Source: Opitutia bacterium Tous-C4FEB
GTDB taxonomy: Bacteria; Verrucomicrobiota; Verrucomicrobiia; Opitutales; Opitutaceae
Direction: 5' to 3'
Length of the DNA stretch: 64,000 bases
Assembly: GCA_002304445.1 (NCBI GenBank)
Contig: NEVA01000005.1
Coordinates: 1 to 64,000, forward strand
Within the stretch, counting starts at the first letter, position 1. The number at the start of each line of letters is the position of its first letter. The notes under the pieces were generated by a model. The model did not search any database, had not been told where the DNA came from, and was given only the letters and a program-made list of their open reading frames with translations. Of this stretch, positions 51,459-64,000 are shown piece after piece. The translations under genes and the position numbers were made by a program.

Positions 51459-54317
51459 CTATTTCTGCGCGCGCCAGCGCGCCAATGCCGCCCCGGTCAA
51501 CGACCGCGCGCACGCCTCGATCCCTTGGCGCGGCCCCGCGTAGACCAGCTCGCCCCCGTCCCGTCCGCCGCCGGGCCCGAGGTCGATCAGCCAGTCGGCG
51601 AGATGGATCACGTCGAGATTGTGCTCAATCACGATCACGGTGTTGCCCGCGTCGCACAGTTTGAAGAGCAGGTCCATCAGTTTTTGGATATCCACCCAAT
51701 GCAACCCCGTCGTCGGCTCATCGAGGATGTAGAGCGTTGAGCCTTGCTGACGCTTGCTGAGCTCGAGCGAGAGCTTGATCCGCTGGGCCTCGCCGCCGGA
51801 GAGCGTCGTCGAAGATTGGCCGAGGGTCAGATAACCGAGCCCCACGGCGTCGAGCGTCGCGAGTTTGTCCAACACCCGCGGGATCGCGCGAAACAGCGTG
51901 ATCGCCTCGCGCACCGTCATGGCGAGCACGTCGGCGATCGACTTGCCGTAAAACAGGATCTCCAACGTTTCCCGGTTAAACCGCTTCCCGCCGCAACTCG
52001 GGCACGGCGCATAGGCATCGGCCATGAACTGCATATCGAGTTTGATCGCACCGTCGCCTTGGCACCGCTCGCAACGACCGCCGCGCACGTTAAAAGAAAA
52101 CCGGCTCGCTTTGTAGCCGCGCACTTTTGCCAGCGGCACCATCGCAAACAGATCGCGCAACAACCCAAGCAGATCGATATAAGTCGCCGGATTCGACCGT
52201 GGGCTCCGACCGATCGGTTCTTGGTCCACTTGAACCAATTTCTCGAAAAAATCCAAGTTCTCGATGTGCCGGTGTTTTCCCGGCAGCCCGCGGGCACCGT
52301 TCAATTTTTTCGCCGCCGCCATCGCCAACACGTCGTTGACCAGCGTGCTCTTACCCGAGCCCGAAACCCCCGTCACACACGTCAACAACCCCACGGGGAA
52401 CTGCGCGTCGACGCCTTTGAGATTGTGCTCCCGTGCCTCCCGCACGGTGAGCCAAGCGCCATCGGGCTTCTTCACTTTCGCGGTCTTGGTCACCGCCATC
52501 TTGCCCGCCAGAAACGGCCCGGTCCGCGAGAGCGTCGGCGGTAGCGCCGCGCACTGCGCCGGCGTGCCTTGGAACAGAACCCGCCCGCCTTCGGTGCCCG
52601 CTTCGGGCCCCAGTTCAATGATCTCATCGGCCGCGCGCATCGTGTCTTCGTCATGCTCCACCACGAGCACCGTGTTCCCTCGGTCACGCAGCGCGACCAG
52701 CGTCTCGATCAACTTTTGGTTGTCATGGGCGTGCAGCCCGATGCTCGGCTCGTCGAGCACGTAGATCACGCCGATCAGGCCCATCCCGAGCTGCGTGGCG
52801 AGCCGCACGCGCTGTGATTCGCCACCGGAGAGCGTCGCGTAGTCCCGTTCGAGCGTCAGATACCCGAGTCCCGTCTCCAGCAGAAAGTGCAGCCGTTGCT
52901 CGATGCCGATGACCACGTCGCCCAGCGCCGGATTCTCGCGAAAGGCCGCGACCAGTTCCTGCGCAAACCCGTGGGCTTCGCCGATGTCGAGCGTCATGAA
53001 TTCCGGGAACGTTTTGCCTGCCACCCGCACCACTCCGCTTCGCCCGTTCAGTCTCGCGCCATGGCACTCGGGGCATTCCCCGCTCACCATAAACGTCGTG
53101 AGCCGAGCCCGGAAACCTTCGCTGTCGGTGTGCCGAAAACTCTCCTCGAGATCCGCGATCACGCCGGCAAACGGCATCGCCTTCGCTTCGCGCATCCGCC
53201 GCATCTTGAACGCAAACTCACGCTCGCCCGCCCCGTGCAAAATCGCATCACGGGTCTTCTGGGGCAGGTCTTTCCACGGCGTATCGGCGTCAAAGGGCAA
53301 CTGTTCGGCCAACTGCTTCAGCAAGGAGTTGTGCTTCATGATCAAGTTCTTTCCGCCGATGCGCCAGGGCTTGAGCGCGCCGCCGCGCACCGATTTGTCC
53401 GGGTCGGCCACGATCAGCTCCGGCACGAACCGCAGCTTCCGGCCCAGCCCGCCGCAGGTTCCGCACGCACCGTCACTGTGATTGAATGAAAAATGGCGCG
53501 GCGTGAGCTTCTCGAAAACATCCCCGCAGATCTCGCATGCGAGCGACTGGCTGAGCGCCACCTCGCGCCACGGCGCCTCGGCGGTTTTCTGCGCCAGCAC
53601 GATCACCCGATCTTTTCCCTCGCGAAACGCCAACTCCAGCGAGTCGGCGAGCCGGCTCCGTTGGTCCACGGTCGCCAGCAACCGGTCGATGACCAATTCC
53701 ACCGACAACTCCTTCGTGCCCGCACCGGACGGAATCAGTTTGGGATCGTCGAGATTCTTGATCTCGCCGTTGAGCCGTACCCGTTGGAACCCCCGCAGCC
53801 GCACCCGCGGCAACTCATCGCGCAGCACACTCGGCTTCGCCCGCATGAAAGGCGCCAGCAGCACCACCCGTTCTCCGGCACACTCGGCCAGCACGCGCTT
53901 CACATTGTCATCAAGCGAGCGCTGCACCACCCGCCCTCCGTCCTTCGGACAACGTTGTTCACCGGCGAGCGCCCAGAGCAATTGCGCGTAATCTGCGATC
54001 TCCGTCACGGTGGCGATCGTGCTGCGCGGCGAGCCTCCGCCCGTGCGTTGTTCGATCGCCAGCACCGGGGAGAGTCCGTGGATGAAGTCGACGTCCGGCC
54101 GCTTGAGTTGATCGAGCACCTGCCGGGCCTGGGTCGACAGGCTCTCCATGTATTTGCGGTAGCCCTCCGCGTAAATCGTGTCGAAGGCCAGCGAGGACTT
54201 CCCCGATCCGCTCGGCCCCGTGATCACGACTAATTTTCCTCGGGGCACACGCACGTCCAAGTTCTTCAAGTTGTGCTCTCGGGCACCTTTGACGTGAATG
54301 TGGGTGGCGGCCTGCAT
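51459..54317 (-). CDS. uvrA: Excinuclease ABC subunit A
   Basis: This 952-residue nucleotide-excision repair ATPase recognises DNA damage with UvrB. It has two ABC ATPase halves: Walker A GPSGSGKS (34-41) and a second GVSGSGKS, with signatures LSGGESQR and LSGGEAQR. Zinc modules CEIC...CGTC and CERC...CPSC are present. The length is typical of UvrA. UvrB and UvrC are not in the window. It is divergent from the DUF1302 gene. Confidence 0.97.
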
Positions 54318-54403: not shown

Positions 54404-54523
54404 CCTTGAAGCACGCCGCGACGGCGCTTTTGGTCGATGGCTCATAAACCCCTCGTGGCTCTCGGTAAACGGGCACTCCAGCTCATTCGTCCGAGGGCCA
54501 TTCAGCAGAACCCACCATCGATT

Positions 54524-56491
54524 ATGCCCTCACCGCACGTTCGTCTTGCCCTGAAATCCCATGTTCTCGGCGCCCTGGCCGCAGCTTTGACTTCCGCCAT
54601 GTTGGTCGCCCCCGCCTACGCCGCCCCGTTTTCTTACGGCGAACTTAAAGGCAGCTTCGACTCCACGTTTTCGGTCGGAGCGCTTTACCGGCTCAACAAC
54701 CCCAGCCCGACCTACTACGGCACCACCAATTCCTTCGACGGTGTCGCGGGCCTCCAGACCTCGGTCAACGCCGACGACGGCAATCTCAATTACAAGAAGG
54801 GCACGGTCTCACAGTTGCTCAAGGGTTCGCACGACCTCGAACTGCGCTACCGTAATTTCGGCGGTTTTGCCCGCGGCTACTACTTTCGCGATTTAAAAGC
54901 CGGCAACACTGCCCGCACCCCGCTCACCGACCAAGCCCAAGACCGCGTCGAAAAAGGCGCCGAACTCCTGGATGCTTACGTCCTCGCGAAGTTCGATGCC
55001 GCCGATTCGATACCGGTCGATCTTCGCTTCGGCCGCCAAGTGCTCAGCCTCGGCGAAAGCACTTTCATCCCGAACGGCATCAATATCATCAATCCCGTTG
55101 ATCTTTCGAAATTACGTGTTCCCGGCGCCGAACTCAAAGAAGCGTTCCTCCCGGTCAACATGCTCAAGGCCTCCATCGGCCTGACGCAGAATCTCACCAT
55201 CGAGCCGTTTTGGTTGCTGGAGTTCCGCCGCAACGAGATCGAGCCCGCCGGCACCTATTTCTCGACCAACGATTTCGCCAGCCGCGGCGGCAAGAACGTA
55301 TTCCTTGGCTTTGGCAGCCTCGCCGACAACGGCACGTTGGGCGGCATCCCTCGCGACTTCGACCGCGAAGGCGGTAACTTCAATCAATACGGCGTCGCGG
55401 CCCGCTACACGGCCGCCGCCCTCAACGACACCGATCTCGGCTTCTACTACGCGAAGTATCACAGCCGCTCGCCGCTGATCAGCTCCCGCACCCCCACCGT
55501 CCCGATCAACACCGATCTGACTGGTCCCTTGACTGCCGTCTTTATCCGCGCGGGCCTGCCGCCCGCCGCCGCCGCCGCTCAAGCCTCCGGCATTTTCCAA
55601 CTGATCGTTCTCTCGCAGACGAATCCCGCTGCACTCACCCCGGTGCAAATTGCCACCCTCCAAGCCGCCCAAACTCAGGCCGCCATCAACGGCGCCCGCT
55701 CCATCGCCCTCCTCACCGCCGCCGCCACCGGCCGCTACTTCATCGAGTATCCCGAAGGCGTCGATCTGTTCGGCGTCAGCTTCAACGCCGCTCTCGGCAA
55801 GACCGGCATCTCTTGGCAGGGCGAGTTTTCCTTCAAGAAAGACCAGCCCCTGCAAGTCGACGACGTCGAACTGCTCTTCGCGACCCTCTCCTCGCTCAAT
55901 CCAGCCTTCGGCGCCAATAACCAAATTGGCAACTACCTCGGCCAGCTTGGCCGCGAGCTCTCCGGCTTCCGCCGTCACAACGTCTCCACCGCTCAGACCA
56001 CGCTGACCAAAGTCTTCGGCCCCCTGCTGGGCTCGCAGCAATTCACCCTCCTCGGTGAAGTGGGCGGCGTCTGGGCCAACCTGCCTTCGAAAGATTATCT
56101 GCGCTACGACGGCCCCGGCACTTTCACCAGCGCCAACGGCGCCTCCATGATCAACACCGGCAACGGCGCTTTCCCGCCCACGCCGTCGTCCGCCTTCGCC
56201 GATGAATTCTCCTGGGGCTATCAAGCCGCCGGCCGCCTCGATTACACCAATGTCTTCGCCAACGTGAACATTTCGCCGTCTCTCGCGTTCACCCACGACG
56301 TGAGCGGAAACACGCCGCTCCCACTCGGCAACTACGTCGCCAAGCGCAAGAGCGTGAACCTCGGCGTCGAGTTCACTTACCAACAAAAATGGTCCCTCGA
56401 AGTTCGCTACGTGGACTTTTTTGGCGGCGACCGTTACAACCTCCTCGCCGACCGCGACTACGTCTCCACCACCCTCCGCTACTCCTTCTAA
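54524..56491 (+). CDS. DUF1302 outer-membrane-type protein
   Basis: Starting at ATG 54524 gives 655 residues with a signal peptide ending at AYA/AP. The sequence reads as a beta-barrel with repeated amphipathic strands, ending in the aromatic-rich YVSTTLRYSF, and matches the DUF1302 family. A helical, Ala/Gln-rich segment (about residues 320-405) interrupts the barrel pattern and may be a plug. It heads a module with DUF1329, YCF48-like and MMPL genes, which suggests a role in moving a hydrophobic compound across or within the outer membrane. This role is inference. Confidence 0.88.
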   Translation: MPSPHVRLALKSHVLGALAAALTSAMLVAPAYAAPFSYGELKGSFDSTFSVGALYRLNNPSPTYYGTTNSFDGVAGLQTSVNADDGNLNYKKGTVSQLLKGSHDLELRYRNFGGFARGYYFRDLKAGNTARTPLTDQAQDRVEKGAELLDAYVLAKFDAADSIPVDLRFGRQVLSLGESTFIPNGINIINPVDLSKLRVPGAELKEAFLPVNMLKASIGLTQNLTIEPFWLLEFRRNEIEPAGTYFSTNDFASRGGKNVFLGFGSLADNGTLGGIPRDFDREGGNFNQYGVAARYTAAALNDTDLGFYYAKYHSRSPLISSRTPTVPINTDLTGPLTAVFIRAGLPPAAAAAQASGIFQLIVLSQTNPAALTPVQIATLQAAQTQAAINGARSIALLTAAATGRYFIEYPEGVDLFGVSFNAALGKTGISWQGEFSFKKDQPLQVDDVELLFATLSSLNPAFGANNQIGNYLGQLGRELSGFRRHNVSTAQTTLTKVFGPLLGSQQFTLLGEVGGVWANLPSKDYLRYDGPGTFTSANGASMINTGNGAFPPTPSSAFADEFSWGYQAAGRLDYTNVFANVNISPSLAFTHDVSGNTPLPLGNYVAKRKSVNLGVEFTYQQKWSLEVRYVDFFGGDRYNLLADRDYVSTTLRYSF

Positions 56492-56495
56492 TCAC

Positions 56496-56533
56496 TGGGG
56501 CGAGGTCTACGTCCCGCCCTTTAAGCCACGCCC
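56496..56533 (+). repeat. REP-like intergenic repeat, copy 1
   Basis: The bases following the DUF1302 stop read TGGGGCGAGGTCTACGTCCC, then GCCCTTTAAGCCACGCCC. A very similar copy follows the DUF1329 gene (57960-57995). The near-palindromic CCCGCCC and GGGGCG ends suggest a REP-like element. Confidence 0.6.
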
Positions 56534-56563
56534 TTATTTTGTTTCCCGCCCCACCCGTTCTCC

Positions 56564-57955
56564 ATGAAAAAAAATTTTAGTTCTCCTCGTCTCTCCCTCC
56601 CCGGCTCACTCCTTCTCTCCGTCACCCTTTCCTTGCTTGCGACTGCAAGCAGCACCCACGCCGCCGTCTCCGCAGCCGAAGCGGCCCGCCTCGGCGCCGA
56701 TCTGACGCCCCTCGGCGCCGAAACCGCCGGTAACGCCGCCGGCACAATCCCAAAGTGGAACGGCGGGATTCTAACCCCTCCCGCCGGCTACAAAGTCGGT
56801 GATCACCACCCCGATCCGTTCGCTTCAGATCAACCGCGCTTCACGATTAATTCGGCCAACCTCGCCCAACACGAGGCCCAGCTCACCGCCGGCTCCGTCG
56901 CCTTGCTCAAAGCCTATCCGTCGACCTACAAGCTTATCGTCTATCCCACCCGTCGCAGCGTTTCCAATCCTCAGCGGATCTACGACGCCACCAAGGCCAA
57001 CGCCACCACCGCCGTCCTCGCCAACAACGGCAACTCCTTCGAAAAAGCCGTTATCGGCGTGCCGTTTCCGATTCCGTCCCAAGGCCTCGAGGTCATGTGG
57101 AACCATCTCACCCGCTACCGGGGCACCTTCGCCACCCGCCATATCGGCCAAGCCGCTCCTACCCGCGGCGGCAGCTACACCCTCGTCCAATTCGAGGATG
57201 AGTTTCTTTTCAACTACGCCCGCCCCGGAGTCACTTCCGCCCAGCTCGACAACATTCTCGTCTACTACAAACAAGCCGTCGTCGCTCCCGCCCGTCAGGC
57301 CGGCACCATCCTCCTCGCCCACGAGACCCTCGACCAAGTGAAAGAGAAGCGGAACGCCTGGGTCTACAACACCGGACAGCGCCGCGTGCGCCGCGCTCCC
57401 GACGTCGCCTATGACAATCCCGGCACCGCCGCGGACGGTATGCGCACCAGCGATCAGTTCGACATGTATAACGGCGCCCCCGACCGCTACGACTGGAAGC
57501 TCGTCGGCAAAAAGGAAATGATCGTCCCCTACAACTCCTACAAGTTGCACAGCGATTCTCTGAAATACGCCGACATCCTGAAACCCCTTCACATCAACCA
57601 AGACCTCGCTCGCTACGAACTTCACCGCGTCTGGGTTGTCGAGGCCACGCTCAAGCCCGGCGCCGCTCATATCTACAAACGCCGCACGTTCTACGTCGAC
57701 GAAGACAGCTGGCAGATTCTCGCCGTCGACCAATACGATTCCCGCGACCAGATGTGGCGCGTCTCCGAGGCCCATTGCATCAATTATTACGATGAGCAGA
57801 CGTTCTGGAGCACCCTCGAAGCCCACACCGACCTCGTCGCCGGCCGTTACCTCGTCTTCGGCTTGGACAACGAGAAAAAAATGTATGATTTCAACGCGAA
57901 GCGCACGCCGGCCGACTACACCGTTGACGCGCTCCGACGCGACGGCGTCCGGTAA
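56564..57955 (+). CDS. DUF1329 exported protein
   Basis: This 463-residue protein has a signal peptide (basic MKKNF start, hydrophobic LLLSVTLSLLATASSTHA) and a DUF1329 domain starting LGADLTPLGAETAGNAAGTI and PKWNGGI. Such proteins are related to the LolA/LolB-type fold family of outer-membrane lipid-handling proteins. It is the second gene of the module, between two REP-like repeats. It probably binds a lipid or hydrophobic ligand in the periplasm; this is inference. Confidence 0.9.
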   Translation: MKKNFSSPRLSLPGSLLLSVTLSLLATASSTHAAVSAAEAARLGADLTPLGAETAGNAAGTIPKWNGGILTPPAGYKVGDHHPDPFASDQPRFTINSANLAQHEAQLTAGSVALLKAYPSTYKLIVYPTRRSVSNPQRIYDATKANATTAVLANNGNSFEKAVIGVPFPIPSQGLEVMWNHLTRYRGTFATRHIGQAAPTRGGSYTLVQFEDEFLFNYARPGVTSAQLDNILVYYKQAVVAPARQAGTILLAHETLDQVKEKRNAWVYNTGQRRVRRAPDVAYDNPGTAADGMRTSDQFDMYNGAPDRYDWKLVGKKEMIVPYNSYKLHSDSLKYADILKPLHINQDLARYELHRVWVVEATLKPGAAHIYKRRTFYVDEDSWQILAVDQYDSRDQMWRVSEAHCINYYDEQTFWSTLEAHTDLVAGRYLVFGLDNEKKMYDFNAKRTPADYTVDALRRDGVR

Positions 57956-57959
57956 AGTG

Positions 57960-57995
57960 TAGGGCGCGTCTCCGACCCGCCCTTTAGCGCCGCCC
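57960..57995 (+). repeat. REP-like intergenic repeat, copy 2
   Basis: TAGGGCGCGTCTCCGACCCG, then CCCTTTAGCGCCGCCC, similar to the copy at 56496-56533. AGGGCG and CGCCCT can pair as a 6-bp stem. The placement just after both genes of the module suggests mRNA stabilisation or processing. Confidence 0.6.
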
Positions 57996-58014
57996 GATCT
58001 CCGTCCCGCGCTTC

Positions 58015-59001
58015 ATGTCTATTCGTTCACTCACGCGATTGAGCCCGATGTCCCCATCGGGCTTTTTCGTTGTCGCCCTCCTCGTCGCCTTGCTTTCCAC
58101 CCCGCTCCCCGCCTCTATCCCGCTCACGTCTGCCCCAAGAATGCTGCTCTTGGCCGGCACCTACGCCGGCCCGACCGCGGTCCTGGCCGTCGGCGAACGC
58201 ACCACTATCCTCCGCTCCACTGATTCCGCGGGCACGTGGCGCCCGGCCGCCGTCCCCGCCACCCTCTCCGCGACACTCACCGGCATCACCGTCGCCCCCG
58301 ACGCTCTAAAGGGTTGGGCCGTCGGCCACGACGCACTCATCCTCGCCACCTCGGACGCCGGCCTCACCTGGCGAAAATCGTGGCAAGGCGACGACCTCAC
58401 CGCCTCGTTTCTCGACGTCCTGGCCCTCGATGACCGCCACGTCATCGCCATCGGCGCCAACGGCCTTTGCCTGGAAACCCGCGACGCCGGCGCCACCTGG
58501 AAGCGTCGCAAACTCATCGACGACGATCTCCACCTCAACCGTCTCACCCGCGGCCCCACTGGCACCCTCTACATTGCCGGCGAAAGCGGCACGTTGCTCC
58601 GCTCCGTCGACTCCGGGGCTACGTGGCAACCGATCGAGTCTCCTTACGACGGTTCCTTCTACGGTATCCTCCCGCTCGGCCCGACCTCCCTCGTCGCCCA
58701 CGGTCTGCGCGGCCGCATTTACCGCTCATCCGACGACGGCCGGGTTTGGGAACTCGTTCCGCTCGCCGACCGCGTGCTGCTGGCCGCCGCCATTAAACTT
58801 AAAAACAACCAACTCCTCTTTGCCGGCCAAGCCCGCGCCTTTTTTACGAGTCGGGACGGCGCGCGCTCCATCGCGCCGCTCAATGTTCCTTTCACCTCCG
58901 CCGTCGCCGCCCTGTTGGAGCTGCCCGACGGTCGCATCCTCGCCTTGGGCGAAGGCGGCGCCACGGTCTTCGACGTGACCGCCTCTCCCGCCACGCCATG
59001 A
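58015..59001 (+). CDS. YCF48/BNR-repeat-like exported protein
   Basis: This 328-residue protein has an N-terminal hydrophobic segment (about 17-34) and repeated DAGATW/DSGATW/SDAGLTW motifs at about 55, 98, 143 and 185, as in BNR or YCF48 beta-propellers. Its stop overlaps the MMPL start as ATGA. In other bacteria YCF48-like proteins often accompany MMPL exporters and DUF1302/DUF1329 proteins. A structural or assembly role at the periplasm is inferred. Confidence 0.88.
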   Translation: MSIRSLTRLSPMSPSGFFVVALLVALLSTPLPASIPLTSAPRMLLLAGTYAGPTAVLAVGERTTILRSTDSAGTWRPAAVPATLSATLTGITVAPDALKGWAVGHDALILATSDAGLTWRKSWQGDDLTASFLDVLALDDRHVIAIGANGLCLETRDAGATWKRRKLIDDDLHLNRLTRGPTGTLYIAGESGTLLRSVDSGATWQPIESPYDGSFYGILPLGPTSLVAHGLRGRIYRSSDDGRVWELVPLADRVLLAAAIKLKNNQLLFAGQARAFFTSRDGARSIAPLNVPFTSAVAALLELPDGRILALGEGGATVFDVTASPATP

Positions 59002-61340
59002 CCGAACGTTTCGCTACTTGGCTCTTTCGCTGGCGCACTCCCTTGCTCATCGGCTTTGCGCTGCTCACCGGCGTGATGGCGTGGTTCGCCGCCCAACTTC
59101 GCGTCGATGCGAGTTTCAACAAATCGCTTCCCCTCGACCACCCCTACATCCGCACGTTCACCAAACATCAGGCCGAGTTCGGCGGCGCCAACCGCGTGCT
59201 CATTGCGCTCGTGCCGGCCAAAGGTGATATCTTTACCCCTGAGTTCTTCGCCACGCTCAAGACCGTTACGGACGAGGCCTATTACGTCCCTGGCGTCGAC
59301 CGCTCCCAAGTCCAGTCGCTCTTCACGCCCAACGTCCGCTTCATCGAAGTGGTCGAAGACGGTTTCGCCGGCGGCAACGTCATCCCCGCCGACTTTACTC
59401 CAACCGCCGATGGCTTCGCCAAAGTCCGCGAAAACATCATCAAGTCGGGAAAACTCGGCCAGCTCGTCGCCAACGATTTTACCGGCGCCATCGTCTCCTC
59501 CTCGCTCCTCGAAATTGACCCCGCCACCGGCGAAAAACTCGACTATATCAAAGTCTCCGCCGCCCTCGAAAAAATCCGGGACCGGGTCACCGCCGATTCC
59601 AAGGGTGCCGTTTCCGCCCACATCATCGGGTTCGCCAAAGTCATCGGCGACATCGCTGACGGCGCCCGCGGCGTCATCACACTTTTTGGCGTTTCCATCC
59701 TCGTGACCGCACTCCTCGTCTGGCATTACGCCGGCCGCTGGAAACTCGCCCTCGCGCCCGTCCTTTGCTCCCTCATCGCCGTCATCTGGCAACTCGGCGC
59801 TCTCACCGCTCTCGGCTACGGCGTCGATCCGTTTTCCATCCTCGTGCCGTTTCTCGTCTTTGCCATCGGCGTCAGCCACGGGGTTCAGAAAATCTGTACG
59901 TTTCGCAACGAGATCTTTCTCGGCCACGACGGCCCCACCGCCGCGCGCAACGCTTTCATCGGCCTCTTCGTCCCCGGCATGGTCGCGCTTTCAACCGATA
60001 CCATCGGCTTCCTCACGATGCTCGTCATCAAGATCGAGACGATCCACGAGCTCGCCATCACCGCCAGCCTCGGCGTCGGCGTCATCATCATCACCAACTT
60101 TTTCCTTCTCCCCATTCTGCTTTCGTATCTCCGCCTGCCGAAAAGCTACGCCGACTGGGTCACCCGCCGTCGGGCGCGTACTGACCGTTTTTGGACTTGG
60201 CTTGCCCGCAGTCTGCGCCCCCGCCCCTCCATCGCCATCACCGTGGGCTGCCTCGCTCTCGGCGTCTGGGCTTGGTTCAAGGCCGGCGAGATTCGCATCG
60301 GCGACACCCATGCCGGCGTCCCCGAACTTCGTCAGGATTCCCGTTACAACCGAGACAGCCGACTCATTACGGAGAAATTCAGCATCGGCGTCGATATTCT
60401 CTCCGTCATCGTCGAGACGATCCCCAACGGTTGCGTCGATCACGAGGTCGTCACCCTGATGGACAAATTTGAAGGCCACATTCGAGAGGTCCCCGGAGTC
60501 CAATCAGTCGTCTCGCTCACCTCGGCGGCCAAAGTGATCAACTCCGGTTTCAGCGAGGGCTCGCTCAAATGGCGCACCCTGTCCCGCCAGCCCCAGACGC
60601 TGGCGCAGTCCGTCTCGCCCATCGAGACCTCCACCGGCCTGCTCAACGCCGATGCCTCGGTGATGCCCGTCCTCATTTTTCTATCGGACCACAAAGCCGA
60701 AACGCTCCGCGCCGTCACCGATGCGGTGAAAAAATTCGCGGCCGAGAACCCTTCGCCCAAAGCCAGCTTTCTCCTCGCCAGCGGCAACGCCGGCGTAATG
60801 GCTGCGACCAATGAAGTCGTCGCCGCCGCCGAGCGGCCCATTCTCTACTGGGTCTTCGGCGCCGTGATCGCGCTCTGCCTGATTACCTTCCGCTCCCTCC
60901 GCGCCACGCTTTGCATCATCGTCCCTCTCGCGATCGTCAGCTACCTCGCCTATGTGGTCATGGTCTACTTGGACATCGGTCTCAAAACGTCGACCCTCCC
61001 GGTCGTTGCCCTCGGCGTTGGCATCGGCGTTGACTACGGCATCTATCTTTTCGCCCGGCTCGAGTCCGCCCTGAAAAACGGCGAGTATTTCGAAGATGCG
61101 ATGATCATCGCCTACAAAGATACCGGTGCCGCCATCGTCTTCACCGGCCTCACCCTCGCGGTCGGCGTAAGCCTCTGGGTCTTCTCCGATCTGAAATTCC
61201 AAGCCGACATGGGCATCCTCCTCACTTTCATGTTCGTCGTGAATATGGTGGGCGCCATCATCCTCCTCCCGGCGATGGCCCGCTGGTTCTGGCACCATCA
61301 CAACGGACCCACCGCGGCCCCTTTTTCAATGCGCAAGTAA
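58998..61340 (+). CDS. MMPL-family RND transporter
   Basis: This 780-residue membrane protein has two halves, each with one TM, a large extracytoplasmic loop and further TMs, about 12 TMs in all (first TM about 13-33; clusters about 220-380 and 600-760). It is of the MMPL class of RND exporters, which move lipids or other hydrophobic molecules. It begins at an ATGA overlap with the YCF48-like gene. The substrate is unknown. Confidence 0.92.
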   Translation: MTERFATWLFRWRTPLLIGFALLTGVMAWFAAQLRVDASFNKSLPLDHPYIRTFTKHQAEFGGANRVLIALVPAKGDIFTPEFFATLKTVTDEAYYVPGVDRSQVQSLFTPNVRFIEVVEDGFAGGNVIPADFTPTADGFAKVRENIIKSGKLGQLVANDFTGAIVSSSLLEIDPATGEKLDYIKVSAALEKIRDRVTADSKGAVSAHIIGFAKVIGDIADGARGVITLFGVSILVTALLVWHYAGRWKLALAPVLCSLIAVIWQLGALTALGYGVDPFSILVPFLVFAIGVSHGVQKICTFRNEIFLGHDGPTAARNAFIGLFVPGMVALSTDTIGFLTMLVIKIETIHELAITASLGVGVIIITNFFLLPILLSYLRLPKSYADWVTRRRARTDRFWTWLARSLRPRPSIAITVGCLALGVWAWFKAGEIRIGDTHAGVPELRQDSRYNRDSRLITEKFSIGVDILSVIVETIPNGCVDHEVVTLMDKFEGHIREVPGVQSVVSLTSAAKVINSGFSEGSLKWRTLSRQPQTLAQSVSPIETSTGLLNADASVMPVLIFLSDHKAETLRAVTDAVKKFAAENPSPKASFLLASGNAGVMAATNEVVAAAERPILYWVFGAVIALCLITFRSLRATLCIIVPLAIVSYLAYVVMVYLDIGLKTSTLPVVALGVGIGVDYGIYLFARLESALKNGEYFEDAMIIAYKDTGAAIVFTGLTLAVGVSLWVFSDLKFQADMGILLTFMFVVNMVGAIILLPAMARWFWHHHNGPTAAPFSMRK

Positions 61341-61385
61341 CCCGGCGCCCTGCGCCGTCCGATTACGCCCACGCCCGCCTTGATC

Positions 61386-63476
61386 ATGTTCACGCGCCTC
61401 CTGCTCGTTACCATCCTCATCGGCCCCGCGTTAGCGGCCGGGAACCCCGACTGGTCCGTCTATCTCGGCGACAAGCAGCGCTCGCTCTATTCTCCGCTCG
61501 CCCAAATCAACCGGGCCAACGTCGACCGGCTCGCCGTCGCGTGGAGCTACGACACCGGAGAAAAAGGCGAATACCAGGCCAACAACCTCATCATCGGCGG
61601 AGTCCTTTACACCGCCACCCCAAGCCGGCGCGTCATCGCGCTCGATGCCGCCACCGGACGCGAACGCTGGATTTGGGACCCCGCGCAAACGCCCGCCGGC
61701 GCCGGCGGGCGACGCCAACGTGGCCTCGTCTTTTGGCAAAACGAGACCGGCGGCGAGCAGCGTCTCTTCACCGCCGTCGGCAATTTCCTTTTCGCCCTAG
61801 ATCCCGCGACCGGCCGCCCCCTGCCTGATTTCGGCACCGCCGGCGCGATCCCGCTCAGTTTCGCATCCGAGACCGAAGGCACCCATCGCGTCGGGCTCAA
61901 CACCCCCGGCGTCACCTACCGTGATCTGCTCATCGTCGGCGGCTTCGGCGGTCCCGGCGCCGTCCGCGCCTTTGATGTGCGCACCGGCGCCCGCCGCTGG
62001 ATTTTTCACCTCATTCCGCGCCCAGGCGAAGTCGGCCACGATACCTGGCCGGCTGACGCCTATAAAACCGCCACCGGAGCGATGCCGTGGTCCGGCCAAT
62101 CGCTCGACGAGGCCCGTGGAATTGTCTACGTGGCCACGAAAACCGCCGAACCGGATTTTTACGGCGCCGACCGCCTTGGCCAAAATCTCTTCGCCAACTC
62201 CCTCGTCGCCCTCGACGCGGCCACCGGAAAACGCCTCTGGCACTATCAAATCGTTCACCACGACCTCCTCGACAAGGACCTGCCGTGCGCCCCGATCCTG
62301 CTCACCGTCACGCACCGCGGCAAAAAAATCGACGCCGTCGCCCAAGGCACCAAGCACGGCTACCTCTTTGTTTTCAATCGCGTCACCGGCGAGCCGCTCT
62401 GGCCGATCGAGGAAAAACCCGTGCCCGCCTCTACCCTGCGCGGCGAACACGCATGGCCGACCCAGCCGTTCCCCACCAAGCCGGCCCCGCTCACCCGCCA
62501 AGCTTACACCGAGGCCGACGTTTCCACGATCTCCCCCGAAGCGCGCGCCCTCACCACCGACCGCATCCGCCTCTCGCCCAATTTCGGCCCTTTTCCCGCG
62601 CCCAGCCTTACCGAGACGATTATGTTTCCCGGCTTCGACGGCGGCATGGAGTGGGGCGGCGGTGCCGTCGATCCCGCTGGCGTCTACTACGTCAACGTAA
62701 ACGAGATTCCTTGGTTGCTCCAGATGGTGGAGACGCGCCGCCCCGACGGCACCCCGCTCCCGCGCGGCGAGCGCGACTACCTCGTCCACTGCGCCGCCTG
62801 CCACGGGATCGACCGCAAGGGCCTCCCCGCCGCCGGATTTCCATCCCTGCTCGACATCGAGAAACGCCGCACGTCCGCCGAGATCGCGCACATCACCCGC
62901 AACGGTTTCGGCCGGATGCCCGCCTTCGACAAAATCCCCGAGCCGCAACGCGAAGCGCTCCTCGCTTACGTGCTCGGCCAGCCGGCGGCATCAGCGAGCG
63001 GACGGCCCGACGAAGCGTCCGCGAAAAAATCCAACGACAAAACTCCGCCCTATGCCTTCGGCGGTTTCCGCCGCTGGACCGATCAGGCCGGTTACCCCGC
63101 GATCAATCCGCCGTGGGGCACACTCAACGCCGTCGATCTCAACACCGGCGAGCTCAAGTGGAAAGTGCCGCTCGGCGAATACCGCGAGCTTTCCGCCAAA
63201 GGCATCCCGCCCACCGGCACCGAGAACTACGGCGGCCCCGTCGCGACCGCCGGCGGCCTGCTCTTCATCGCCGCCACGGCCGACGAGACCATCCGCGCCT
63301 TCGACCAGACTACGGGCAAGATTCTCTGGCAGGCGCCGCTCCCGTTCGGCGGCAACGCCACTCCGAGCACCTACGCCGTCGCCGGCCGCCAGTATGTTGT
63401 GATCTCGGCCGGCGGCGGGAAATCCGGCCGCCCCGCCGGCGGCATGATCGTCGCCTTCGCTTTGCCTTCGCCCTGA
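61386..63476 (+). CDS. PQQ-dependent dehydrogenase with inserted cytochrome c domain
   Basis: Starting at ATG 61386 gives 696 residues with a signal peptide. Eight-bladed-propeller PQQ motifs (such as AATGRERWIWDP and LDAATGKRLWHYQ) are present. A cytochrome c segment is inserted before the last blades: CAACHG (62790-62804) with a later GRMPAFDKI Met ligand. Propeller repeats then resume (LNTGELKWKVP). The enzyme oxidises an alcohol or sugar in the periplasm and passes electrons to its own haem. It lies 45 bp after the MMPL gene, so it may belong to the same module. An upstream TTG at 61380 is also possible. Confidence 0.93.
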   Translation: MFTRLLLVTILIGPALAAGNPDWSVYLGDKQRSLYSPLAQINRANVDRLAVAWSYDTGEKGEYQANNLIIGGVLYTATPSRRVIALDAATGRERWIWDPAQTPAGAGGRRQRGLVFWQNETGGEQRLFTAVGNFLFALDPATGRPLPDFGTAGAIPLSFASETEGTHRVGLNTPGVTYRDLLIVGGFGGPGAVRAFDVRTGARRWIFHLIPRPGEVGHDTWPADAYKTATGAMPWSGQSLDEARGIVYVATKTAEPDFYGADRLGQNLFANSLVALDAATGKRLWHYQIVHHDLLDKDLPCAPILLTVTHRGKKIDAVAQGTKHGYLFVFNRVTGEPLWPIEEKPVPASTLRGEHAWPTQPFPTKPAPLTRQAYTEADVSTISPEARALTTDRIRLSPNFGPFPAPSLTETIMFPGFDGGMEWGGGAVDPAGVYYVNVNEIPWLLQMVETRRPDGTPLPRGERDYLVHCAACHGIDRKGLPAAGFPSLLDIEKRRTSAEIAHITRNGFGRMPAFDKIPEPQREALLAYVLGQPAASASGRPDEASAKKSNDKTPPYAFGGFRRWTDQAGYPAINPPWGTLNAVDLNTGELKWKVPLGEYRELSAKGIPPTGTENYGGPVATAGGLLFIAATADETIRAFDQTTGKILWQAPLPFGGNATPSTYAVAGRQYVVISAGGGKSGRPAGGMIVAFALPSP

Positions 63477-63565: not shown

Positions 63566-64000
63566 ATGTCCGACGAGCCCACGCCTTCCGCGCCCGACTC
63601 CGCTTTCCTCACCCCGAGCCAACGCCGCACCGTCGGCTTCACCCTCACCCTCGCCGCTGTCTTCGGTGCCATCGCCCTGATCATCAGCGGGGTCATCGTC
63701 CTCGGCCGCATGGTCAGCTACTTCTCCAGCGTCCTCTGGCCTCTCGCCGTTGCCGGCGTCCTCGCCCTCATTCTCCGTCCGATCGTCGATCTGTTTGTCG
63801 GTCGGCTCAAACTTCGCCGGCCCGCTGCGGTCACCTTGCTCTACGGCTTGGCCTCCCTCGTTTTCGCGGTTTTTCTTCTTTTGCTCCTCCCGCCCCTCAT
63901 CGACCAACTACTCACCTTTATCACTTACGTCCCGACGCTCTGGGCCAACGCGGGAAACTACATCGAACGCAACTACCCTGACTGGGGCGCGCTGGCCCAA
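63566..64000 (+). CDS. AI-2E/PerM-family membrane protein (3' end outside window)
   Basis: The window ends inside this gene, which starts at ATG 63566; about 145 codons are visible. After a hydrophilic start (MSDEPTPSAPDSAF) comes a run of TM segments: VGFTLTLAAVFGAIALIISG, then SSVLWPLAVAGVLALILRPI, followed by VTLLYGLASLVFAVFLLLLL. This is the layout of the N-terminal part of AI-2E/PerM-family transporters. It is on the same strand as the PQQ dehydrogenase, 89 bp later. Confidence 0.85.
   Translation, partial: MSDEPTPSAPDSAFLTPSQRRTVGFTLTLAAVFGAIALIISGVIVLGRMVSYFSSVLWPLAVAGVLALILRPIVDLFVGRLKLRRPAAVTLLYGLASLVFAVFLLLLLPPLIDQLLTFITYVPTLWANAGNYIERNYPDWGALAQ

Follow-up and report, generated by a model that had tools for sequence, protein, structure and literature searches.

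The window analysed here, a stretch of 64,000 nucleotides (positions 1 to 64,000) of the 194 kb contig NEVA01000005.1 in the 3.76 Mb draft genome of Opitutia bacterium Tous-C4FEB, carries four consecutive genes, called A to D below, which encode a DUF1302 protein (A), a DUF1329 protein (B), a YCF48-like protein (C), and an MMPL/resistance-nodulation-division (RND) protein (D). Because their content and order match those of the published ameABCD genes, this cassette is an already known kind of system. We consider it probable that A to D together move a hydrophobic or amphiphilic molecule across the envelope as a transporter of the AmeABCD type, that a hairpin between B and C attenuates expression, that the cassette entered the Opitutales a single time, and that the pyrroloquinoline quinone (PQQ) dehydrogenase gene lying behind D works separately.

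Gene order and distribution

A first-pass annotation, made from the sequence alone, described five genes in the same direction with short gaps and an overlap between the YCF48-like and MMPL genes. All five open reading frames (ORFs) are in place on the plus strand at 54524-63476, with 72 bases between A and B, 59 between B and C, and 39 between D and the dehydrogenase gene, C and D overlapping by 4 bases. The gene names also hold, as a Pfam check places all five far above the cut-off. A search for sigma-70-like promoters found 0, against 1.4 expected from shuffles.

The proposal that the first four genes are a conserved set is borne out by co-occurrence mapping. Named genomes were scanned with a DUF1329 alignment, and gene order was read from plus-strand ORF positions, with no gap limit, in the best 80 of the 592 confirmed relatives. 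Plain A-B-C-D was seen in 54 of these 80 loci, which belong to the Gamma- and Alphaproteobacteria, Desulfobacterota/Myxococcota, Nitrospirota, Acidobacteriota, and Opitutales, and 3 further loci have all four genes in order plus an extra B or AB. The 26 loci other than the plain ones comprise 11 AB, 4 B, 4 BCD, 3 ABC, 2 ABBCD, 1 ABCDAB, and 1 BBCD; it should be mentioned that four of the 15 AB or B loci (L133, L161, L198, L209) end within 610 bases behind B. Because the order recurs across phyla, it is not due to chance. The co-occurrence named for Gammaproteobacteria is thus found, and for Pseudomonas it is found in part: all eight Pseudomonas loci among the best 80 have A-B without C-D (L209 being cut 610 bases behind B), and some P. 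aeruginosa plasmids carry A-B-C-D. The other genus named, Marinobacter, does not appear in the title of any record among the best 80 named loci. On plasmid pYa108 of Vibrio alfacsensis (L260), the first two genes are reversed, DUF1329 preceding DUF1302. An apparent C-D gene fusion in L073 was rejected, because a stop codon follows residue 310 and the true order is A-B-C-D.

DUF1302 matches occur in 12 of the 13 genomes of the genus, in 111 of 200 genomes of the family, and in 33 of 387 genomes drawn from the phylum; outside the family, strong full-length matches are limited to two of the phylum genomes, G309 (same order) and G469. Forty family loci were taken from 39 of the 111 matching family genomes, with a preference for long contigs. 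A-B-C-D stands in order in 39 of the 40, the contig of L063 stopping inside B, and in L046 and L082 part of D is missing at the contig end. In 39 of the 40 loci, uvrA adjoins A divergently, and the exception (L064) is a second copy in genome G018. The copy number is mostly one per family genome, with second full-length DUF1302 copies in G018 and G044. Among the best 80 named loci, a strong uvrA match beside A is confined to Opitutales loci, 7 out of 10; of the remaining Opitutales, L155 starts too near B, and L178 and L201 have 7.0 and 4.6 kb upstream without uvrA. L211 has a weak uvrA-like match more than 4 kb away. In the open-licence literature, we found no paper describing DUF1302 in the Opitutaceae or in other Verrucomicrobiota.

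Predicted proteins

The AlphaFold model of A (mean predicted local distance difference test score, pLDDT, 87) is a porin-type barrel, and a fold search (VIA) gave Occ channels as its best matches (OccK2, Z 23.2 over 307 residues, root-mean-square deviation 3.1), with AlgE at a Z of about 20. By this predicted model, A agrees with AmeA in being an outer-membrane barrel. The model of B (pLDDT 86) contains a LolA-like domain at residues 170-463, which matches LolA3 of Porphyromonas gingivalis (Z 19.9), the DUF1329 protein 4z48 (Z 18.7), and LolA of P. aeruginosa (Z 8.9); the fold search and the Pfam LolA_like match (1.4e-9) together place B in the LolA superfamily. Some 170 residues precede this domain. 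Searching the sequences of A and B against solved structures yielded no convincing match, the best being 9tp6 (LolA3) at E=0.075 for B. Families that the fold searches did not list are not counted as excluded.

The best NCBIfam match of D, HAE3 (2A067, E=4.2e-47), falls below its cut-off. Among solved structures, the closest relatives of D are MmpL5 and MmpL4, followed by HpnN and MmpL3. D lies below the HpnN cut-offs (83 bits against 751.85 for TIGR03480, and 31.4 against 1100 for NF052374). One of its transmembrane halves carries S293-H294-Q297 (SHxxQ) and the other D679-Y680-Y683 (DYxxY), both invariant in 89 of 89 aligned rows; in alignments, both halves of MmpL4 and MmpL5 show DY opposite the DY half of D. 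No other D-like pump was found in this genome at E<=1e-5.

Known systems

The comparisons with published systems below draw on portions of the cited papers. In Castellaniella defragrans, the products of ameABCD are, from first to last, a DUF1302 outer-membrane protein, a DUF1329 protein of the LolA superfamily, a COG4447 (YCF48-like) protein, and an HAE3 RND pump, and the system was characterised with monoterpenes in 2018 (PMC6394551), so that the statement of the first-pass annotation that substrate and mechanism are undescribed has to be withdrawn. Deletion of ameABCD lowered monoterpene tolerance and raised Nile Red influx, an insertion in ameB reduced growth on monoterpenes (limonene, myrcene, perillic acid), and the authors describe the composition and order of the cassette as conserved in the AmeD lineage (PMC6394551). 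The window shows the same four families, order, and predicted locations, a likeness at the level of family and order. Whereas ameABCD lies on a monoterpene-metabolism island, the window cassette lies beside uvrA, and the portion of text examined makes no mention of the Opitutales clade (PMC6394551).

In Pseudomonas putida, PP_0765 (DUF1302) and PP_0766 (DUF1329) are needed for growth on Tween 20 and are tied functionally to PP_2018 and PP_2019, a periplasmic protein and an efflux transporter, for which a novel transport system was proposed (PMC10866462); by gene number these are two separate loci, whereas the window has one cassette. The "nanopod" cluster of the benzene degrader ORM2a encodes a porin, a DUF1329 protein, a YCF48-related protein, and an MMPL protein together, as in the window, and these are well detected in proteomes; unlike the window, ORM2a belongs to anaerobic Desulfobacterota and has two extra genes between the DUF1329 and YCF48 genes (PMC13101534). 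DUF1302 and DUF1329 proteins are also listed for Delftia nanopods (PMC3110197), and growth on phenanthrene is affected in a Delftia DUF1329 mutant, as cited in PMC13101534. The role in handling a hydrophobic compound that the first-pass annotation suggested is in keeping with this literature (PMC6394551, PMC10866462, PMC13101534).

B shares the LolA carrier fold with the Lol system, from which it differs by its extra N-terminal residues. The Lol system uses the ATP-binding cassette transporter LolCDE and LolB, and here an RND pump and a barrel stand in their place.

Descent of the cassette

The trees were built from quick searches under LG+G4, are unrooted, and came with long-branch warnings; those for the four genes include the 84 of 109 rows in which all four genes are long enough. 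The 35 Opitutales rows of the RND tree group together as one set (support 99), and the named Opitutaceae records nest among those of the family to which the window belongs, in line with the earlier impression of a verrucomicrobial chromosome. The Opitutales lie on one side of a single branch in all four trees (support 73 for A, 95 for B, 98 for C, and 100 for D), and the patristic distances of the four trees correlate at 0.67-0.90 (84 rows); in other words, the four genes have the shared history that had been proposed for them. Within the family, the A to D distances also correlate with those of uvrA, at 0.69-0.85 (18 of 32 loci). These observations fit one entry of the cassette into the Opitutales line, followed mostly by inheritance in place beside uvrA; unrooted as they are, the trees give no direction for the first transfer. 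Genome G018 has two cassettes, L064 (G018:C25) and L075 (G018:C22). In the RND tree, the copy lacking uvrA falls among other genera, suggesting that it was transferred within the family.

A hairpin between B and C

Behind B, and ahead of the body of C, there is a strong terminator-like hairpin (Table 1), with a predicted RNA fold of -20.5 kcal/mol for 58036-58075 (z -5.1). Hairpins were counted by one criterion in the 150 bases around each gene end, each locus making a row of its own even where loci are related. Since the gene ends of A and C, used as controls, lie mostly in coding sequence, shuffles are the fairer control. In the family, a hairpin follows B in 24 of 39 loci (shuffle mean 2.3, maximum 7), against 2 of 40 after A (shuffle mean 0.45), 5 of 39 after C (1.4), and 2 of 37 after D (1.2). 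In the named set, it follows B in 4 of the 10 Opitutales loci and in 28 of 55 non-Opitutales cassettes (shuffle mean 1.6, maximum 6), the non-Opitutales counts at the other gene ends being 1 of 51 after A, 7 of 53 after C, and 16 of 49 after D. The hairpin thus recurs across phyla (window, L044-L083, L132-L211) with stems that differ between lineages, about eleven different ones by eye in the family list.

This pattern in the DNA suggests selection for partial termination, by which A and B would be made in larger amounts than C and D. The spectra reported for the ORM2a cluster (106 for the porin, 158 for DUF1329, 65 for YCF48, and 60 for MMPL), which are semi-quantitative and come from a cluster with two extra genes in between (PMC13101534), fit such an excess. 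The window hairpin overlaps the first codons of C, with an alternative start of C at 58048 inside it, and it may therefore affect translation too. The hairpin is apparently unreported: it is absent from the portions of the cited papers examined, although no literature search was aimed at it.

Proposed mechanism and alternatives

On the reading that we favour, D would be a proton-driven RND pump that docks with the propeller C and takes the molecule from the inner membrane; B, a soluble LolA-like carrier, would shuttle it across the periplasm; and A, the porin-type barrel, would pass it through or into the outer membrane. The hairpin behind B would make the channel and the shuttle more abundant than the pump. 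In the Opitutales, the cassette would have entered once and been kept beside uvrA mostly by descent, so that its substrate may be a lipid made by the cell itself or a toxicant common in the environment, and the PQQ dehydrogenase gene would be a later single-gene insertion behind D, whose product works separately.

Several observations weigh against this reading. To our knowledge, no experiment has been made on such a cassette in any of the Verrucomicrobiota. D scores 160.7 bits, under the NCBIfam HAE3 cut-off of 351.9, and AmeD itself lies outside the data set, so that kinship to the characterised protein rests on family and order. The porin-type fold of A leaves the passing molecule unspecified, and the Opitutales branch of A has a support of only 73. 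By the criterion used, 15 of 39 family loci and 27 of 55 others lack the hairpin, whose stem in the window falls within the annotated start of C. No DUF1302 match was found in 89 of the 200 family genomes, nor in 63 of the 147 more complete ones, and the cassette is therefore dispensable. Finally, the growth defects seen on hydrophobic substrates fit uptake as well as efflux.

The last point leads to the possibility, which we hold to be unlikely, that the same cassette is an importer, in which A would admit a hydrophobic nutrient, B would carry it to C and D, and D would move it into or across the inner membrane for catabolism. The mutants of P. putida (Tween 20; PMC10866462), C. defragrans ameB (PMC6394551), and the Delftia DUF1329 gene (phenanthrene, as cited in PMC13101534), which grow less or not at all on the substrate, speak for import. 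Thirteen plasmid stretches were opened, and of the 12 that are annotated, 7 (L128-L131 and L258-L260) have genes for coenzyme A (CoA) ligase, acyl-CoA metabolism, CoA-transferase, or ring or carbon degradation nearby, as judged by eye, which favours uptake, or tolerance during catabolism, on those plasmids. Around the family cassettes, by contrast, no evident catabolic genes were seen by eye among the ORFs inspected, where no family search was made. Known RND pumps move their substrates outward. Since, in addition, the Castellaniella deletion mutant took up more dye and tolerated less monoterpene, export is more likely than import.

A special case of the AmeABCD-type transporter, and in our view a doubtful one, is that the cassette serves a housekeeping function, bringing a lipid of the cell's own envelope (hopanoid-, carotenoid-, or ornithine-lipid-like) out to the outer membrane. 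The single copy beside uvrA in most genomes, the LolA-type carrier, and the fact that HpnN, a relative of the HAE3 pumps, moves hopanoids (PMC6394551) point in this direction; the family genomes without DUF1302, the second copies in G018 and G044, and the low score of D against the HpnN model point away from it. Equally tentative is the broader idea of a distinct class of trans-envelope lipid conveyors, in which an RND pump with DY in one half and SHxxQ in the other would feed a LolA-type shuttle, a terminator between AB and CD, maintained in several phyla though with varying stems, would fix a high ratio of shuttle to pump, and the Opitutaceae would keep the system beside uvrA for housekeeping of an endogenous lipid.

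The PQQ dehydrogenase behind D

The first-pass annotation attached a haem-carrying PQQ dehydrogenase to the set and coupled transport to periplasmic oxidation. The adjacency is real, the two genes lying on the same strand with no terminator-like site in between, and the enzyme does carry a haem domain, inserted in its propeller; its membership in the conserved set does not stand, and the coupling is not supported. Behind D, 36 of the 40 family loci can be judged (L046, L057, L063, and L082 have none or fewer than 150 bases there), and the dehydrogenase gene is found in one of the 36, namely in the window and the sister genome G008 (95% identical). In four relatives of the genus (L047-L050), an AI-2E gene follows D after 49-67 bases of otherwise empty gap, and in other genera various ORFs occupy the spot. 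In G005, an HNH-domain ORF with a lower third-position GC content (L045:2815-3579, minus strand) lies between D and the AI-2E gene. In L051, L054, L056, and L068, long minus-strand ORFs lie directly behind D, and their N-terminal regions look by eye like MacB/FtsX-type permeases. Since the spot behind D varies between genomes, it seems to take up genes, and the PQQ dehydrogenase would be one such recent arrival.

In the available stretches of the best 80 named loci, no homologue of the dehydrogenase was found at phmmer E<=1e-20. Its family is large, with matches in 82 of 200 family genomes at E<=1e-60, and copies 76-81% identical occur in nine genomes of other genera; in stretches of up to 18 kb around these nine copies, tblastn found no homologue of A, B, C, D, or uvrA. 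Four of the eight copies inspected (L243, L244, L247, L248; L242 was left out) have a sulfatase gene within a few ORFs, a hint of sugar or polysaccharide substrates. The dehydrogenase as a conserved member of the cassette was thus rejected by its distribution in family and named loci.

The protein itself is probably a working enzyme, judging from its sequence. The equivalents of D466 and K493 of E. coli Gcd, which we take to be the catalytic Asp and Lys, are D298 and K325, and all 37 aligned rows, which count the window twice (also as L084), have them; H262 of Gcd is not kept, and the residue alignment rests on the window, E. coli, and L117 rows. CxxCH at 471-475 and the methionine of the inserted cytochrome domain are kept in 36 of 37 rows, the last having a gap there. 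The ratio of nonsynonymous to synonymous substitution (dN/dS) between the window and G008 is 0.12, which indicates constraint. Unlike Gcd, the protein shows no N-terminal membrane domain in their alignment and carries a cytochrome c domain in its propeller. It scores 428 bits against the cut-off of 832.65 for TIGR03074 (PQQ_membr_DH), matching from model position 154. Type II quinohaemoprotein alcohol dehydrogenases have their cytochrome c domain at the C terminus; here the haem domain (461-531) lies inside the propeller, which resumes at 580-678. The PqqC model had no match in 13 genomes of the genus or 150 of the family, but the controls had no match either, so that absence does not follow. 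On plasmid pUM505 of Pseudomonas aeruginosa (L254), pqqF lies upstream of an A-B pair with an AraC-type regulator gene in between, a weak hint of a link to PQQ.

A five-gene module, in which transport of a hydrophobe is coupled to oxidation by the dehydrogenase, is therefore very improbable, because the closeness to D, the purifying constraint, and pUM505 have to be set against a gene found in one judgeable family locus, replaced behind D in relatives, and free of cassette genes in its nearest kin outside the genus; position alone ties the PQQ dehydrogenase to the transporter.

Coordinates

The start of A may also lie at a further in-frame ATG upstream, at 54437, and for the PQQ dehydrogenase, whose listed start is TTG, the ATG at 61386 is equally possible.

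Table 1. Features of the cassette and its surroundings in the window
Feature	Position	Strand	Remarks
uvrA	51459..54317	-	Divergent; adjoins the cassette on its left in almost every family locus
Gene A, DUF1302 outer-membrane beta-barrel with signal peptide, AmeA-like	54524..56491	+	Pfam PF06980 E=1.4e-152; predicted model
Gene B, DUF1329 periplasmic LolA-like carrier (predicted), AmeB-like	56564..57955	+	Pfam PF07044 E=3e-156; LolA_like 1.4e-9; predicted model
Gene C, YCF48-like periplasmic beta-propeller, AmeC-like	58015..59001	+	PSII_BNR E=7.9e-20; third in order in relatives
Terminator-like hairpin, 10 bp stem with a T run behind it	58041..58064	+	Between B and the body of C
Gene D, HAE3-like RND/MMPL inner-membrane pump, AmeD-like	58998..61340	+	Pfam MMPL 4.8e-29
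Exported PQQ dehydrogenase with inserted c-type cytochrome domain	61380..63476	+	Pfam PQQ 1.1e-178, Cytochrome_CBB3 1.8e-11; neighbour outside the conserved cassette
AI-2E family transporter gene	63566..64000 (on to contig position 64720)	+	Pfam PF01594 E=1.6e-49; right-hand neighbour of D in genus relatives

Meaning for the Opitutaceae

The DUF1302/DUF1329/YCF48/RND cassette is widespread and little studied. What is noteworthy in the window is the uvrA locus of the Opitutaceae and the hairpin, the rest being ordinary. The discoverers of AmeABCD drew a comparison with an HAE1-like export channel (PMC6394551), and the hairpin between AB and CD yields a testable prediction of stoichiometry that would separate a shuttle mechanism from such a channel. 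The version of the Opitutaceae, mostly vertical and at a fixed site, offers a good genetic background for asking which cargo the cassette carries and in which direction.

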